Both the position numbers and the translations under genes were made by a program. The notes below the pieces were generated by a model. It ran no database searches, had not been told where the DNA came from, and saw only the letters and a list, made by a program, of their open reading frames with translations. From Clostridiaceae bacterium (GTDB lineage Bacteria > Bacillota > Clostridia > SK-Y3), in assembly GCA_012735465.1 (NCBI GenBank), contig JAAYHJ010000018.1:1-64000 (forward strand): a DNA stretch of 64,000 nucleotides, read 5' to 3'. This document shows positions 47,038 to 60,474 of the stretch, in pieces (within the stretch, counting starts at the first letter, position 1; each line of letters begins with the position of its first letter).

Positions 47038-47739
47038 ATGTATGGCAGGTGGGAGGATATATTATTAAAAGTACCTTTGTTTCATGGATTTTCCATGGAA
47101 AATTTAAATACATTGTTAACGTGCCTGAGACCGAGAATTAAACAATATAAGAAAGGCCAATATGTTGCCATTGAAGGGGAAAAACAAGAAGGAATTGGGA
47201 TTGTGATTACGGGCAATGTAACCGTGTCTAAAGAAAATATTACAGGTAAGCGTGTTATTATGGATGTATTGAAACCGGGTGATATGTTCGGCGAGATGGC
47301 CGTTTTTTCTGATAATGGGTTATGGCCTGCATCGGTATTTGCCCATGAAGATTGCACGATAATGTTCCTTGCGGCTCATGCAATTGTAGATAATTGCTCA
47401 AGAATATGCAATAACCATAGAATGCTGATGTTGAATATGTTAAAAATTCTTACCCAGAAGGCTCTTATTCTGAACAGAAAGGTGGAATATTTATCCATTA
47501 AGAGTATGCGGGGTAAAATCAGCACATATCTGTTGGAACAGTACAAAAAAAAGGGCAGCCCTATGTTTACTCTTCCCATGAACCGGGACCAGCTTGCAGA
47601 TTTTCTAAATGTATCCCGTCCGTCCATGTCGCGGGAAATGTGCCGTATGAGGGATGAGGGTATTATTGATTTCCACAGGGATTCGGTTCGTATTAATGAT
47701 TTGGATGCACTGGTCAAGGCTGTGGAATCAAATATATAA
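47038..47739 (+). CDS. Crp/Fnr family transcription regulator
   Basis: About 233 residues: cyclic-nucleotide-binding-like barrel at about 10-125 (GDMFGEMAVFSD), a dimer helix, and a winged helix-turn-helix near the end (MNRDQLADFLNVSRPSMSRE). There is no N-terminal cysteine cluster as in Fnr, so an iron-sulfur sensor is not indicated. The effector is unknown. AGAAGGTGG is spaced for the ATG at 47038. It follows the sugar transporter and may control it or itself. Confidence 0.88.
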   Translation: MYGRWEDILLKVPLFHGFSMENLNTLLTCLRPRIKQYKKGQYVAIEGEKQEGIGIVITGNVTVSKENITGKRVIMDVLKPGDMFGEMAVFSDNGLWPASVFAHEDCTIMFLAAHAIVDNCSRICNNHRMLMLNMLKILTQKALILNRKVEYLSIKSMRGKISTYLLEQYKKKGSPMFTLPMNRDQLADFLNVSRPSMSREMCRMRDEGIIDFHRDSVRINDLDALVKAVESNI

Positions 47740-47764
47740 GTGGACATTAAAGGAGAAATATTAC

Positions 47765-48469
47765 ATGGATTATGCATTAATTACTGCGCCATTAGTTGGG
47801 GCTATGATTGGATATATTACAAATGATATTGCTATAAAGATGCTTTTCAGGCCTCTTGAACCAAAATACTTATTTGGCATTAAGATACCTTTTACCCCCG
47901 GAATCATTCCCAGAGAGAAAAGGCGCCTGGCAAGAAGCGTAGGTGTTGCAATTGGAGAAAATTTATTAAATGATGATGTTTTGATTCGTACTCTATCGTC
48001 TCCTGAGTTTCATGAAGTAGTTGAAGAATGGTTTGATAAAAAGGTTGAGCAATTGGCAAAAAATGAAGAAACCATCTTTGAGATTATTTTGCATGTTTCG
48101 GATGAAGCACAGGTGCGGGAATTTATTGACCAATTGCAGTATGATGCTGCTGACCTGTTGTTTAAAAAAATTAATTCCGATGAATTTGTAAATAAGATGA
48201 CATCCTATATTTCGGAAGAGGTGGACCGTATAATAAAAAAGCAGATGGCAAACCGCTTTTTCCGTTTTGCTGCACGTTTTGATATGGGAATTACAAATGC
48301 TTTGAAGGATTTTATTATCAGGAAAGTCAAAGAAATGCTCCTTTCACCAAACACAAGGCAGGTTCTTGGTTCGTTGGTACAGGATGAAACGAAAAAACTA
48401 TTGGATTTGCGGGCGGGAGAACTGGTGGAGCAAATGGGCGATAGGATTCCACGAATAAAAAAATGGTGA
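47765..48469 (+). CDS. DUF445 (YheB-like) membrane protein, N-terminal part
   Basis: 234 residues starting with a membrane segment and the family motif GAMIGYITNDIAIKMLFRPL, then FTPGIIPREKRRLARSVG. AAAGGAGA precedes the ATG at 47765; the frame is open further upstream inside the crp/fnr gene. The frame stops just after ATA AAA AAA TGG TGA, while the family's C-terminal membrane end is encoded in the -1 frame from 48463. The run A AAA AAA is in the right phase for -1 slippage, so either one frameshifted gene, a real mutation or a sequence error is present. Related Bacillus YheB acts in the spore/coat region; role here unknown. Confidence 0.8.
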   Translation: MDYALITAPLVGAMIGYITNDIAIKMLFRPLEPKYLFGIKIPFTPGIIPREKRRLARSVGVAIGENLLNDDVLIRTLSSPEFHEVVEEWFDKKVEQLAKNEETIFEIILHVSDEAQVREFIDQLQYDAADLLFKKINSDEFVNKMTSYISEEVDRIIKKQMANRFFRFAARFDMGITNALKDFIIRKVKEMLLSPNTRQVLGSLVQDETKKLLDLRAGELVEQMGDRIPRIKKW

Positions 48470-48684
48470 TAAACGCTTTTGACAATATTGTGTATAAAAA
48501 CTTATCTCAGGTTTTATCGGCCATTGATATTCCTGCTATTGTGGAAAAACGCATTAATGAGTATGACCTGGCGGAACTTGAACAGTTAATATTGGATGTG
48601 GCAGGAAAAGAACTGAAAGCCATTGTATGGCTGGGTGCGTTTTTGGGGTTCCTAATGGGCTTTTTACCCCCATTATTTACATAA
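48463..48684 (+). CDS. DUF445 protein, C-terminal part in the -1 frame
   Basis: 73 codons that continue the DUF445 protein: amphipathic helices (IVEKRINEYDLAELEQLIL) and the closing membrane hairpin ELKAIVWLGAFLGFLMGFLPP typical of the family's end. It overlaps the N-terminal part by seven bases at an A7 run and has no ribosome site of its own, so it is best read as part of the same gene. Confidence 0.7.
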   Translation: MVINAFDNIVYKNLSQVLSAIDIPAIVEKRINEYDLAELEQLILDVAGKELKAIVWLGAFLGFLMGFLPPLFT

Positions 48685-50407: not shown

Positions 50408-51520
50408 TTACTCACCAGTATTTCTATAGCTAATTACATTAGATAATGGATTCTGATTTCCCAAACTATCCCAAACAAATGCTTTAATACTATAACCCTC
50501 TATATCCTTTGGTAAATTTATACTTGTTCCGAATTCAATTGACTGTTCTTTACTCAACTTAATCCTCATCAAAGATAACTGCTCCATCTTATTGCTTTCA
50601 TTATATAGTACAATTAACAAAGTTGCTTGTGATTCTGATGAATCGTTTTTTGTCACTATCGTATTTGCAACAATCATTGTTCCGGGTTGTGGTAATTGAA
50701 TCGGATTATCTAATATATCAGTAAACGTTAGATCACCTACTGTATACGGATCTGGGGTCTGTGGAGGTTCCGGGTCTTCTGGGGTCTGCGGAGGATCGGG
50801 ATCTACCGGAGGTATAGGTGATCCAAATGGGATACCGTATACTATCACTCCATTATCTCCTACCGCAATATAATTATTCCCGTCCCACATAATATCGTTC
50901 AAATTGTTCAATGTACCAGATGGCTTGCTAACCCATTTTTTACCGTCAAACGATTCATATAAGATGCCGTTTTCTCCAACTGCTATGCTCCTATCTTCCC
51001 CATTTACGCTACTTAGGAATGTAATACCCGATGATACCGAGAGTTTTTCCCATATTATCCCATCAATTGAAGTCAGTATAGCACCTGAACCAGATGCTAC
51101 GTATTGAGTCCCATTCCACACAACAGTATTTAAAGATGTATCAACGCCTGATATCTGTTTTGTCCAGTTAACTCCATCACTGGAGGTAAGAATTAAACCA
51201 TATGCTCCAACGGCAACAAATTTATTATTACCATATATTACGCTAAAAATTGAGTAGTTTGTATCGGGCGTTCTCTTTGTCCAGGTTATGCTATCTGTTG
51301 ATGTCAATATTGTACCTGTATTTCCTACGGCAACATATATCTCACCATTATACGTAATGCTTTTAATAAATCCTGTTACATTGGAATTTTGTGGCGTCCA
51401 ATCAGCCCCATCTATTGATGTCAGAATAATACCATTATATCCTGTACATATAAATTGCCTTCCATCCCAAATTACATCATAAAGGTCATTCGTTGTTCCA
51501 GAGTTTACACTTTTCCACAC
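50408..51520 (-). CDS. Beta-propeller and C-terminal part of an exported protein, cut off by an upstream in-frame TAA
   Basis: 370 codons in the same frame as the gene ending at 51539, separated only by TAA and six sense codons. It holds six blades of about 42 residues, each with a W(T/K/E) start and a G-ILTS-DG turn, e.g. GIILTSIDGADWTP; with the blade cut by the TAA this makes seven, the usual number for a closed propeller. A Pro-rich linker (about 234-258) and a roughly 105-residue terminal domain (YTVGDLTFTDI to the end) follow. It has no signal peptide and no ribosome site at the GTG, so alone it would not be exported. The terminal domain recurs in the protein at 58231-60474. Confidence 0.75.
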   Translation of the reverse strand: MWKSVNSGTTNDLYDVIWDGRQFICTGYNGIILTSIDGADWTPQNSNVTGFIKSITYNGEIYVAVGNTGTILTSTDSITWTKRTPDTNYSIFSVIYGNNKFVAVGAYGLILTSSDGVNWTKQISGVDTSLNTVVWNGTQYVASGSGAILTSIDGIIWEKLSVSSGITFLSSVNGEDRSIAVGENGILYESFDGKKWVSKPSGTLNNLNDIMWDGNNYIAVGDNGVIVYGIPFGSPIPPVDPDPPQTPEDPEPPQTPDPYTVGDLTFTDILDNPIQLPQPGTMIVANTIVTKNDSSESQATLLIVLYNESNKMEQLSLMRIKLSKEQSIEFGTSINLPKDIEGYSIKAFVWDSLGNQNPLSNVISYRNTGE

Positions 51521-51538
51521 TTTACAATCATCTGATAT

Positions 51539-53404
51539 TTATATAGCACCTGCAGTTCCTACAGCAACATATTTATCATTCCCTTGTGTAATTGCATACA
51601 AATTTCCTGTAGATGACAATGTATTTGTCCAATTAATTCCGCTCTCGTTATCGTTATAAAAAGAAGTAAAATAGTCATGGTAACCGCCACATTCAATATC
51701 GCTTGACAGAGATTTAATTAATAATTTACCTCCGGCAGGAATTTCAATTTTAGAACCATAGGTCGACGTTTTATTTAAAACCTCGGTTCCATTACTATCA
51801 TAAGCATAAACATCAATCCGTTTACTTGAACTACTTGTAGTTAATACTGGAAGATTTACTGAAGCAGTATTAATAAAGGTATACGTTTCGCCTGGTTTTA
51901 TTGTTGCTTTACTTAATGCAGGCTCATTACTTTTTTGGGATGTAAAAAATTTATAATATCCACCAAAATACGTATTGTTGGTTAATGATGTTATAATCAT
52001 TCGACCTCCAGCTGGTAGTGTAATACTTCCTGATACAACTCCTGATCCATTATTAAGACCTTGACCGTATACTGTACCATCGCTGTTGTATATCGCATAA
52101 TCATATCTACCCGAATTAGCTGAGTACATCATTTCATGTTCGACCGTATCATTATTTTTAAACTCATAACTTGCTCCTGGTTTTAGCGTAACCGCTCTCA
52201 ATGCCGGCTCATCGCTTTTTTTGGCTGTAAAAAATTTATAGTATCCAGCAAAACTTCTACTATCGTTTAATGGTGTTACAACCACTCTACCTCCAGCAGG
52301 TATTGTAAGACTGGCTAATTTGCAATAAATATCTTGTTTGTATTCTGTCCCGTCGCTGTTGTATATCGCATAATTATAATATTCACTCAAAGAAAGTGGA
52401 GTCATTAATTCATGCTCTACTCTATCAGTATTTATAAACTCATAACTTTCTCCTGGGTTTACCGCAACTCTTCTCAATGCTGGATCATTACTTTTTTCTG
52501 TTACAAAGAAATTATAATAACCACCAAAATCCATATCAACGGTTGTCGGTGTTACAATCACTCTACCTCCGGCAGGTATTGTAAGACTGGCTGATAAACT
52601 ATTCATTACTTGATTGTATGCTGTACCATCACTGTTGTATATCGCATAATCAAATCGAGTAGTTGATACATTAACATTAGTTCGTATTTCATGTTCCTCT
52701 ATATCGGTATTTATAAACTCATAGCTTTCTCCTACTTTTACCGTAACCCTTCTTAACGCTGGATCACTACTTTTTTCTACTACAAAAAAATTATAATATC
52801 CACCAAAATCTATATTACCATTTAATGATGTTACAATCAATCTACCCCCAGCGGGTACTGTAATTGAGCTTGTATAACCGTTATTTATTTTTTGATCGTA
52901 TTCTTTTCCATTACGTGTATATATCGCATAATCAAATTTATTCGAGCTACTACTGCCTTCATTCACAATTTGATGTGAAACTGTATCATTATTTATAAAT
53001 GCATAACTTTCTCCTGCTTTTACCGTAACCCTGCTTAATGCCGGCTCATTACTAATACTACTAATAATATATAAATTATCTATTCTGCACGCTATTTGTC
53101 CTTTTTGTCCTGTGATTACTAAACGGCCCTTTGCCGGTATTGTCAAACTTGAAGTCGATACGGAAATCCCTTGTTTGTTTTCAGTACCATCTTGATTGTA
53201 AATCGCATAGTCATAGGATTTTTCTGATCCAGATAATGTGATTGAAATTGAACGGGCCGAAGTATCATTGTTTATAAATTCATAGCTTTCTTCCGGATTA
53301 ATATTAATAACCGTTGTCTCTGCACATGCTTCATCGTGAATAAAAATAAAACATGCGACACACATAATGGTTAATACTAGCAATGTTTTTTTAATATTTC
53401 TCAT
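51539..53404 (-). CDS. Exported protein of six ~90-residue repeats, N-terminal part of an interrupted gene
   Basis: 621 residues. A signal peptide (1-28, cut near CAE) is followed by six copies of a domain of about 90 residues: a GESYEFINTD-like start, a DYAIYNSDGT core, an IPAGGRVIVT strand and a FGGYYNFF end, with (N/D)(E/D)PAL-R joining them. After repeat 6 the first propeller blade begins (INWTNTLSS, KYVAVGTAGAI) and is cut by TAA at 51539-51541; the next codons, ISDDCKVWKSVNSG, complete the blade. The original gene spans 50408-53404, 998 codons. The reverse-strand ATG follows AAGGAGGA. Function unknown; surface recognition by inference. Confidence 0.8.
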   Translation of the reverse strand: MRNIKKTLLVLTIMCVACFIFIHDEACAETTVININPEESYEFINNDTSARSISITLSGSEKSYDYAIYNQDGTENKQGISVSTSSLTIPAKGRLVITGQKGQIACRIDNLYIISSISNEPALSRVTVKAGESYAFINNDTVSHQIVNEGSSSSNKFDYAIYTRNGKEYDQKINNGYTSSITVPAGGRLIVTSLNGNIDFGGYYNFFVVEKSSDPALRRVTVKVGESYEFINTDIEEHEIRTNVNVSTTRFDYAIYNSDGTAYNQVMNSLSASLTIPAGGRVIVTPTTVDMDFGGYYNFFVTEKSNDPALRRVAVNPGESYEFINTDRVEHELMTPLSLSEYYNYAIYNSDGTEYKQDIYCKLASLTIPAGGRVVVTPLNDSRSFAGYYKFFTAKKSDEPALRAVTLKPGASYEFKNNDTVEHEMMYSANSGRYDYAIYNSDGTVYGQGLNNGSGVVSGSITLPAGGRMIITSLTNNTYFGGYYKFFTSQKSNEPALSKATIKPGETYTFINTASVNLPVLTTSSSSKRIDVYAYDSNGTEVLNKTSTYGSKIEIPAGGKLLIKSLSSDIECGGYHDYFTSFYNDNESGINWTNTLSSTGNLYAITQGNDKYVAVGTAGAI

Positions 53405-56063: not shown

Positions 56064-57578
56064 TTGAGGCGCTTAAAAAAGAAAGATGCCAAAAACCTTG
56101 ATTGGGTCGATAAAGCACCTGCTGTTGCGATGATAGCAACTATTGTACTCCAAGGAAGTTATTTTCCTATCGAATATATGAGCATTTCGTTGGTAATTTG
56201 TATAATACTTTTATATAGGTTGAGCTTAAAACAAGATCATGTTTATATAAACAAATCTGTAATGGTGTTGTCACTGCTGCTTTGTTCCATGTATGTCATT
56301 TCCACTGTGTTTGTTTCTTGTGATAAATATGCCGCGGCGACAGAGACATTCAAGGTATTTGGCTTTATGCTTTTTTTAGCAGTTTGCCTGACGCAGCGCA
56401 ACAAAATAGCACTTCTGGGAGGAACTTTGATAGGAATCCTTTGTGTAAGTGTTGTGGGATTGACAGCATACATAGGAAAGTGGGGCATTGACAGCATGCT
56501 GCTTGAAGATAGAGGCTTGCTGAGGCTGCAATCCATTATCCAATATGCAAATACAACAGCACTTCTAATGGGAATAGGATTTTTCATATCTCTTTATTTC
56601 ATGGAGCGGCAAAAAGAAAATTCAAAAAAAACGGTTTATGCAGCAGTAGGATATGTTTTACTCATTTCACTGGTTTTAACTTTTTCAAGGTCCATGATAG
56701 GCATTTTTACATTTCTTTTGGTTATCACTGTTTTTTGTATGAGAGGGTACTTGATGAGAGCAGCTGTCGTTTTAGAGTTTGTATTAGCAACAGCTGTGGG
56801 CTATTTATTGAACAAGCTGGTGTTAGGCGGACAATCCTTAATGGCAGTTGTACTGCTTTGTCTTTCTATATTGCTTGTTGTATATGTTTTTTTAAAACTT
56901 AGCAGTATACCGCAGCTTATTGGGAAAACGATATACTATATTTTTGTGACTTTACTATTTGTCGTGCCAGCGGGCATTTTTGCTGTGGTATATTTCAGGA
57001 AGTTAGATCTGTTATCTTTGATGGGTAGCACTTTTGCAAGCAGATTGGTGTATATGCAAGATGGCTTATCAATAATATTGAAGAACCCTATTATGGGTAT
57101 AGGCCCGGGAGGATGGATGGAACGACAGTTTATTTATCAAACTGCCCAGTATTTTGTCCGTTATGTGCATAACGGTTTTATACAATTGGCACTGGATGCA
57201 GGAGTTGGTGCGTTGGCAGTATTTATTGCTATTATAGTCATTTTTTATGTTCATATAATACGCAAATATAAAAAAACGCATGAGTTTTATTATTTTATTA
57301 TTCTTATGATAATGACGTTAATAATGCTTCACAGTTTATTGGATATCGATATGAGCTTTTTATCAGTAAACGCTATTATAGCACAGTGTATTGCCATAGC
57401 CGTTGAGGACCAATCTAAGGGGTGCAGTACAAAAACAGGTTTATACAAAAGGTATGTCAAACCGGCAATGGTAATTTTTTTGGTCATCACAGTTTATTAT
57501 ATTATAGGTGACATAAGCTTTCAAAAAGCACAGCAAAGTTTTATCAACAAGGATTTTAAGACAGCTGAAAGAATGTAA
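56064..57578 (+). CDS. O-antigen ligase (Wzy/WaaL-like) membrane protein, interrupted by an in-frame TAA
   Basis: 504 residues with about twelve membrane segments and the O-antigen ligase pattern: LTFSRSMIGIFTF, then a loop with MGIGPGGWMERQF and YVRYVHNGFIQLALDAG (conserved His). Such enzymes join or polymerise lipid-linked glycans outside the membrane. GAGGGGAG precedes the TTG at 56064. After KTAERM comes TAA (57576-57578), and the same frame continues directly with a TPR-like tail to 58025. Clostridial relatives often carry such a TPR tail on the same chain, so the TAA appears to split one gene of 654 codons. Confidence 0.82.
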   Translation: MRRLKKKDAKNLDWVDKAPAVAMIATIVLQGSYFPIEYMSISLVICIILLYRLSLKQDHVYINKSVMVLSLLLCSMYVISTVFVSCDKYAAATETFKVFGFMLFLAVCLTQRNKIALLGGTLIGILCVSVVGLTAYIGKWGIDSMLLEDRGLLRLQSIIQYANTTALLMGIGFFISLYFMERQKENSKKTVYAAVGYVLLISLVLTFSRSMIGIFTFLLVITVFCMRGYLMRAAVVLEFVLATAVGYLLNKLVLGGQSLMAVVLLCLSILLVVYVFLKLSSIPQLIGKTIYYIFVTLLFVVPAGIFAVVYFRKLDLLSLMGSTFASRLVYMQDGLSIILKNPIMGIGPGGWMERQFIYQTAQYFVRYVHNGFIQLALDAGVGALAVFIAIIVIFYVHIIRKYKKTHEFYYFIILMIMTLIMLHSLLDIDMSFLSVNAIIAQCIAIAVEDQSKGCSTKTGLYKRYVKPAMVIFLVITVYYIIGDISFQKAQQSFINKDFKTAERM

Positions 57579-57581
57579 CGC

Positions 57582-58025
57582 TTGAGCGGATATTTTAGGC
57601 CATTCGATGGTGAAGTATATTACAATCTGGCCTATTGTTACCAGTATCAAAATAAAAGCAAGCAGGAGGCATATCAATTGCTAAAAAAGGCCAGAAGTAT
57701 GGATATGTACAATGTACAGTATATAAAAGAAATGATTGTTTATGTATATAAGGAAAATCAATTCCAACAGATGTACTTGCTGGCAAATGAATGGACCGAT
57801 ATACAGCCTATGGAAGTTCAAGGGTACGAGTCATCAATGCTGGCGTTGTATGAGATGTATAAAAAAGGTGATATAGAACTGGAGCAGTTGGAAATGGAGA
57901 AAAGTAAATTATTCAACAAGGTAAATATTGCAAATAAAAAGAGGAATCGGCTTTCTAAATATATTGCTAACCAGAGTATTATCTCAATTGATGAGGAGTG
58001 GAAAGCAATATTTGAAAGCAGGTGA
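57582..58025 (+). CDS. TPR-like tail of the O-antigen-ligase-like protein, after the TAA
   Basis: 147 codons in the same frame as the ligase, one codon after its TAA. Helical repeats of TPR type are visible: GEVYYNLAYCYQYQNKSKQE, AYQLLKKARSMDMYNVQYIK. The TTG at 57582 has no ribosome site, so it is unlikely to be made on its own. Then 58026-58230 holds no gene apart from the leader of the next one. Confidence 0.65.
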   Translation: MSGYFRPFDGEVYYNLAYCYQYQNKSKQEAYQLLKKARSMDMYNVQYIKEMIVYVYKENQFQQMYLLANEWTDIQPMEVQGYESSMLALYEMYKKGDIELEQLEMEKSKLFNKVNIANKKRNRLSKYIANQSIISIDEEWKAIFESR

Positions 58026-58230: not shown

Positions 58231-60474
58231 ATGAATTTTAAAACAAAATTACTATTTAAAAGCTTATCCATCGTGATGTCTATTGTAATGTTTACTGTCA
58301 CTTTCGCAGCAGTTCCGTCTACAGCCGGTGCGCAGGAGTTGAAGACAGTGGATGAAGTCCAGGTTATTACACTGCCGGTTATGCAAAAGCCGGGGTATGA
58401 TAACCAATTCACATCCGACCAGTTCAGGCTTGCATCCTCAGAACAGACAAGCGATGAAGAAGATGGTGGGGTAGAAATAGGGTATAGTAGTGCGGTTTAC
58501 TACAGTTCTACGGCTGAAAAAGCAATTGCGTTTATTGATATTCAGGGTCTTGACGACACTATTGATACTATGTTGACACTAATAGATGAAGAAGGCATAC
58601 AAGTCAATATCGGTAATGTCAAGAGCGGAGCATTTTTAATACCTATTAGCGAAATTCATCCGGGAACATATCAATTAAACCTTAAAGGTATGATAAACGG
58701 GCAGGTTATTTTTGACGAAGTTTTCGGAGATATGACCTTTTATAAAGTAGGACCAATCCTTGCAAAAAAATATTACCCTATAAACCAGTTAGAATTTGAC
58801 CTAAATATATATCATTTTGGTCAGAATAAGCAAGCGTTTACAGATGAAAATATATCTGGAGTTTCTATTGAACTAAGAAAAGACGGGCAAACAAAGGCAA
58901 AGACAACGCATTTATTTGGAGAAAATGTTGGATATTATATTGATTATTATTATGAAGAAGAAACTTGCTATTATGACTATACGCTTGATGCAACTCTGTA
59001 TACAACAGAGCCAATTGAGCAAGGTGAATATGATGTTATCCTGATTAATAATGGGTATGAGCAGGATTTAGGCCAAGATTGCAAAGTTGTGGTAACGGAA
59101 CAGCCTATATTAGATTATGTTTATATAGCAGGAGACAATTATGATGATATTACCCCAAATACCAGATCTTTTATTGTGGAAATAGGAGGATACGGTATTT
59201 TCAGAGATATGGTGGAACTTCAGCTTGTAGATGAGCAGGGAAATGTAGTTGCAAATTCTACACAAAATGAATATATCGGTTATGATAATGAAACAGGTTT
59301 TACTGTAATCAGGTATAAACTCGAAGCTCAAGACGGCAAAAGCTTACAGGTAGGCGGGATGTATTACGTAAATATTGTGAATACGGGTGTGGAATTTGTA
59401 AGCAATGTTTCTGCTGCTTGGATTCAAGTAAGAGGGGAATTGCCTGAAATTACTGAAATTGATACACAAGAAGCTGCTATAGGGCGGCTTAGGCTAAAAA
59501 CACTTAATCTCAATGCCGGTCAGACGTATCGTGGTGAATGTGTAGTGAGAAAGGATATCTACTATACGTATACTAAGGATACCGATAGAATTCAAATATC
59601 GCTATACGGAATATTAAATATTGATGTGGAAAACTTATGTGTAAAAATTCAAGGGTTATCAGGTGCAGTTGATGCTGTCATTGATAAGGAAAGTGTACTT
59701 TCATATCAGGTAAGACGTCACAACATTGAATTTGATGTAGATATTAATCCCCCTTTGAAACGGGGTAAGTACGCACTTTCTATTTTACAAGGAAATGAAA
59801 CACTATATACAGAAACAATAAATGTATATGATTACGATGTGGTTGAATGGGACTGGGTAGAAATTGAAGGCGGGATAGTAGCCCTTAACATATACATGAA
59901 TGGTCTTTCAAAGGCAAAGAATTACACCGCCGTATGTTATAAGCATGACCCTGAGAACTATTCGTTTTATACATCTTCAGTGAGTTTACCGGTATCAATT
60001 GAGGGAGATCATATCAGCATATCCGGTGAGACACTGCGTGATTTAGGAATAGGTGATTATGAATATTATTCAATATACATAGAAGAAGATGGTAAGCTAA
60101 TAGGCAAAATTGATTTTTATCTTGATAGACCTATTGTAACCGATCTTGAGAGTATGTTTGATGTAAGTACAACCTTTAACATGAATTCTTTGAGGCCAAA
60201 CGTGCTGCTCGATGCCCGGGTAACGGTTACAAACAACAGTAATTTACAAATTCCTGTGCTTGTTATTGCCGCACTTTATAATGAAACGGGTAGGATGATT
60301 AACTTGTCTTATATCTCAAAGGATATTCCGGTAGGACAAACGGAGAATATGCATTCAGGATTTGTTTTGCCGTCTGATATCCAGGGCCATAAGGTCAAGG
60401 TTTTTGTGTGGGATGGAGAAGATTTAGAAACCTCCAATATGATACCTTTGTCTGAAGCGACAACGCTGGAGTAA
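58231..60474 (+). CDS. Large exported beta-rich protein of unknown function
   Basis: 747 residues. Signal peptide 1-35 (cut near AGA). The rest is rich in beta-strand with repeated patterns of about 90-110 residues (ISGVSIELRKDGQTKAK, DMVELQLVDEQGNVVAN), suggesting several Ig-like modules; no family is recognised. The last 100 residues or so (from about 645) match the C-terminal domain of the interrupted propeller protein: LYNETGRM, LPSDIQGHKVKVFVWDG. There are no SLH repeats or LPXTG motif. AAAGGGGGAAAAGG precedes the ATG. It lies between the ligase and the LtaS-like gene. Confidence 0.82.
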   Translation: MNFKTKLLFKSLSIVMSIVMFTVTFAAVPSTAGAQELKTVDEVQVITLPVMQKPGYDNQFTSDQFRLASSEQTSDEEDGGVEIGYSSAVYYSSTAEKAIAFIDIQGLDDTIDTMLTLIDEEGIQVNIGNVKSGAFLIPISEIHPGTYQLNLKGMINGQVIFDEVFGDMTFYKVGPILAKKYYPINQLEFDLNIYHFGQNKQAFTDENISGVSIELRKDGQTKAKTTHLFGENVGYYIDYYYEEETCYYDYTLDATLYTTEPIEQGEYDVILINNGYEQDLGQDCKVVVTEQPILDYVYIAGDNYDDITPNTRSFIVEIGGYGIFRDMVELQLVDEQGNVVANSTQNEYIGYDNETGFTVIRYKLEAQDGKSLQVGGMYYVNIVNTGVEFVSNVSAAWIQVRGELPEITEIDTQEAAIGRLRLKTLNLNAGQTYRGECVVRKDIYYTYTKDTDRIQISLYGILNIDVENLCVKIQGLSGAVDAVIDKESVLSYQVRRHNIEFDVDINPPLKRGKYALSILQGNETLYTETINVYDYDVVEWDWVEIEGGIVALNIYMNGLSKAKNYTAVCYKHDPENYSFYTSSVSLPVSIEGDHISISGETLRDLGIGDYEYYSIYIEEDGKLIGKIDFYLDRPIVTDLESMFDVSTTFNMNSLRPNVLLDARVTVTNNSNLQIPVLVIAALYNETGRMINLSYISKDIPVGQTENMHSGFVLPSDIQGHKVKVFVWDGEDLETSNMIPLSEATTLE

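Follow-up and report, generated by a model that had tools for sequence, protein, structure and literature searches.

The locus examined here raises the question of whether a putative O-antigen ligase and the open frame directly behind it are two genes or one gene interrupted by a single ochre codon. It lies near the end of a 64,000-nucleotide stretch of contig JAAYHJ010000018.1 from a Clostridiaceae bacterium draft genome (GCA_012735465.1), hereafter referred to as the window.

Reading frame and coding potential of the tail

The ligase frame opens at a TTG at 56064 and meets an in-frame TAA at 57576-57578 immediately after KTAERM, beyond which the frame remains open over 148 codons up to a TGA at 58023-58025, both as the original prediction had described. 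Read through the TAA, the frame comprises 653 codons from TTG 56064 to TGA 58023-58025; before the stop it ends ...FKTAERM and after it continues RLSGYFRPFDGEVYYNLAYCY... The locus contains the following features:

56064..57575, + strand: Wzy_C O-antigen-ligase-like membrane enzyme (PF04932, WaaL fold match), first 504 codons; TTG start with the ribosome site GAGGGGAG just upstream
57576..57578, + strand: in-frame TAA, codon 505, predicted to fall within the first TPR, in its helix B (498-511 in the model)
57579..58022, + strand: TPR-type tail of 148 codons in the same frame, its head lacking a start
57678..57680, + strand: in-frame TTG preceded by AGGAGG, an internal start candidate that may be due to chance and whose product would be the last 115 codons only
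58023..58025, + strand: TGA closing the whole frame, at the expected end of the full-length gene

The tail is real coding sequence, since it contains no in-frame stop, compared with 6 and 15 in the two other forward frames, and its hexamer coding score is positive (0.15) in its own frame and negative in all five others. When the tail was resampled 5000 times with a first-order Markov model, stops averaged 12.4 and no resample was free of them. Signs of further decay, such as a second stop or an abnormal coding score, are absent. A profile built only from the tails of relatives, with the window left out, matches the tail with E = 1.6e-6 among the 8780 frames of the genome, and the predicted fold of this region matches TPR arrays, which bears out its earlier description as helical and TPR-like. 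By sequence comparison, the tail and the TPR tails of ligase relatives are homologs.

Continuity in relatives

Homologs were sought at several levels. A contig search with a single sequence gave no match, whereas a two-row alignment recovered 14 loci, and searches of the family and order (6-7 genomes) did not find a close relative. The closest relative, Clostridia bacterium ES-bin-9 of the same order, encodes a ligase of 660 aa in one unbroken frame (L145, on the same contig as L010), which aligns over residues 27-619 of the read-through frame and is ungapped around the stop. In a search of 391 genomes of the class, the match from this genome was the only one with an internal stop; the others are single frames, either tail-less (451-547 codons) or tailed (612-797 codons), with one further frame of 497 codons truncated where its contig ends.

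Of 27 aligned sequences, 20 are relatives with a tail and six are relatives with none. All 20 tail-bearing relatives are continuous across the junction, where various sense residues occupy the column aligned with the stop. In no aligned relative are ligase and tail encoded by two neighbouring genes, the arrangement named beforehand as refuting a split gene. Alignment with full-length relatives thus yields one chain, and the proposal of one gene split by a single ochre codon is supported. Two other Wzy_C frames are present in this genome (474 and 483 codons), both too short for the membrane domain plus such a tail. As tail-less ligases exist naturally, including these two, the shortened protein need not be dead.

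Predicted fold and position of the stop codon

The first part of the frame matches Pfam Wzy_C (PF04932) with E 8.5e-10 and 39 bits, above the curated cut-off of 31.7. An AlphaFold model of the read-through frame, built from 13 sequences and with the stop position entered as a placeholder residue, has a mean pLDDT of 79. Its top PDB match in Foldseek is WaaL (7tpg; E 3e-5, probability 1.00, 13% identity), with a modest TM-score of 0.38 by query and 0.58 by target, and the next structural matches are TPR arrays at about 2 A. The predicted fold is thus WaaL-like plus TPRs; the solved WaaL chain differs in having about 400 residues and no TPR tail. The fused-family profile also matches TPR structures across the junction.

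In the model, residue 505 lies in the second helix of the first TPR (498-511), within a block of pLDDT about 90. The TAA is accordingly predicted to lie inside a repeat helix and not between domains, and at such a position a natural gene boundary is not expected. R154, R327 and H369 are invariant and R209 is nearly invariant in family alignment A3, a conservation internal to the family, and all four lie upstream of position 505, as does the last transmembrane helix. A tail-less ligase is therefore conceivable.

Both fused and unlinked ligase/TPR arrangements have already been described. The O-oligosaccharyltransferases WsfB of Paenibacillus alvei and PglL of Neisseria combine a Wzy_C domain with a C-terminal TPR motif, whereas in Geobacillus stearothermophilus the Wzy_C ligase WsaB has no TPR and the gene just upstream encodes WsaA, a distinct TPR protein of 168 aa (PMC2943079). 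The frame studied here resembles WsfB and PglL in the order of its parts, a Wzy_C membrane domain followed by C-terminal TPRs in one frame, but it is cut by the TAA in the first TPR and, by analogy with these enzymes, glycan transfer is only putative. In this assembly the TPR is therefore not on the same chain as the ligase, the TAA standing between them in the same frame, whereas it is in the 20 tail-bearing relatives. The locus shares with WsaB and WsaA the placement of ligase and TPR parts on different polypeptides, but there the TPR part is an upstream gene of its own, while here it lies downstream in the same frame with a head that lacks its own start.

Other interrupted genes and a possible assembly error

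Further interrupted genes were identified in the assembly, two of them in the window. A secreted repeat/beta-propeller protein (50408-53404, - strand) is split by an in-frame TAA at 51539-51541, where its own repeats have a sense residue, and a DUF445 gene (47654-48684, + strand) has an apparent frameshift at an A-run near 48460. Elsewhere, in-frame TAAs interrupt an EAL protein (contig C23, L032:16180, - strand) and an LRR protein (contig C37, L046:4536, - strand), and a purF-like gene is frameshifted at an A-run (L116:17545, - strand), these three names being read by eye from the translations. In addition, an oxidoreductase-rhodanese frame contains an in-frame TGA (L130:2232, - strand), which may encode selenocysteine or mark a further break; in 1.9 of the 2.32 Mb, no tRNA for selenocysteine was predicted by ARAGORN. 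Because membrane genes receive low hexamer scores, the screens did not pick up even the ligase, and the number of interrupted genes is therefore a lower bound. A handful of breaks in 1.9 Mb is an ordinary rate, and the other breaks fit ordinary gene decay or consensus errors. Three of the breaks fall in a 10-kb region close to the end of contig C1, which slightly favours a local sequence quality problem there.

The TAA could have arisen in the draft through a consensus or base-call mistake, with the living cell carrying an intact gene, a sub-case of the main reading to which we give somewhat less than an even chance. The assembly is a draft of 95 contigs, the frameshifts at runs of 7-8 A in the purF-like gene and in the DUF445 gene 9 kb away suggest an imperfect consensus, and the tail is otherwise intact. 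However, the TAA is a substitution-type change outside any homopolymer, and genuine nonsense mutations are common in surface and envelope genes.

Surface-protein context

Many large proteins of this genome share a domain of about 86 residues, found in 31 open frames and located at the extreme C-terminus in 28 of them. Two copies are encoded in the window, at 60193-60471 and at 50411-50700 (- strand). The domain has no match in Pfam or NCBIfam and is possibly a shared surface-targeting or anchoring domain. In ES-bin-9, two secreted proteins (L145 2194-5325) that match the interrupted propeller protein of the window (E about 1e-5) are encoded behind the intact ligase, a neighbourhood hinting at a functional link between the ligase and propeller-like surface proteins.

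Translation signals, re-initiation and readthrough

Re-initiation could in principle yield two functional polypeptides, a ligase and a TPR protein, starting at TTG 57582 or at the internal TTG 57678. The former follows the stop at a distance of four bases, and TTG serves as a start codon in this genome; however, no ribosome site was found at this head of the tail, where the SD duplex of -3.7 is near the background median of -2.7. At TTG 57678, an SD-like AGGAGG at normal spacing gives a strong duplex (-10.3 kcal/mol, equal to that of the ligase's own start). The earlier statement that the tail has no ribosome site consequently holds for its head but not for its interior. As TTG 57678 sits 33 codons inside the tail, in the second TPR region, and its AGGAGG is formed by plain CAG GAG GCA (Gln-Glu-Ala) codons, this site is probably due to chance, and a start there would lose the first TPR. 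WsaA and WsaB are a precedent for an unlinked TPR, but with the break in mid-helix of a TPR and no aligned relative showing a split pair side by side, we consider two functional products very improbable.

In a related scenario, the stop is real and kept, and a tail-less ligase would be accompanied by a separate TPR fragment, or by a little full-length protein from readthrough, the TPR part tuning the ligase in trans as has been suggested for WsaA/WsaB (PMC2943079). Such an arrangement appears very unlikely.

Genome-wide reassignment or suppression of TAA was rejected, as TAA is the terminator used most often (in 684 of 1159 long genes), in-frame TAAs are few, and no UAA-reading (UUA-anticodon) tRNA is present among 43 tRNAs from 1.9 of 2.32 Mb (82% of the genome). 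A recoding element 3' of the stop was also rejected, since the RNA following it folds no better than shuffles (z 0.71). For the same reasons, programmed or suppressed readthrough of this TAA to a full-length protein is highly improbable, although the open tail has a normal coding composition. That the two frames have always been separate and adjoin in frame by coincidence is scarcely credible: the tail alone gives weak TPR matches (E 0.016) and no significant BLASTP match to L010 of ES-bin-9, but the fused relatives, the alignment through the junction and the tail profile match all contradict it.

Interpretation and implications

We conclude, with a probability of roughly 0.87, that 56064-58025 was once one gene encoding a Wzy_C ligase with C-terminal TPRs and is now ended by a single nonsense codon, through either a recent mutation or a draft error. 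The ancestral product would have resembled WsfB and PglL: one membrane protein of the Wzy_C family, acting as an O-ligase or O-oligosaccharyltransferase and carrying a TPR domain at its C-terminus. From the position of the stop, we infer that translation would now end after 504 residues, within the first TPR, and that the expected product would retain the whole membrane domain with its conserved His/Arg residues and last transmembrane helix while losing the TPR domain; the tail would be untranslated, or translated at trace level only. Either a recent real mutation in the strain may have left the gene truncated or decaying, or the draft assembly may carry a wrong base at this position. Against a single broken gene stand the undecayed tail, which may still be used, the WsaA/WsaB precedent (PMC2943079) and the internal SD-like site at TTG 57678. 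Nevertheless, the most likely reading is a gene broken or truncated in the ordinary way, or an error in the sequence, and not a new mechanism.

The interruption itself is ordinary, and the intact form of the gene is of an already known kind. For annotation, the locus should be named as a single interrupted Wzy_C-TPR ligase rather than as a ligase with an orphan protein behind it. Should the stop be real, this strain would carry a naturally truncated form in which the membrane enzyme is kept and its protein-binding tail lost, and would offer a handy test of the role of that tail.
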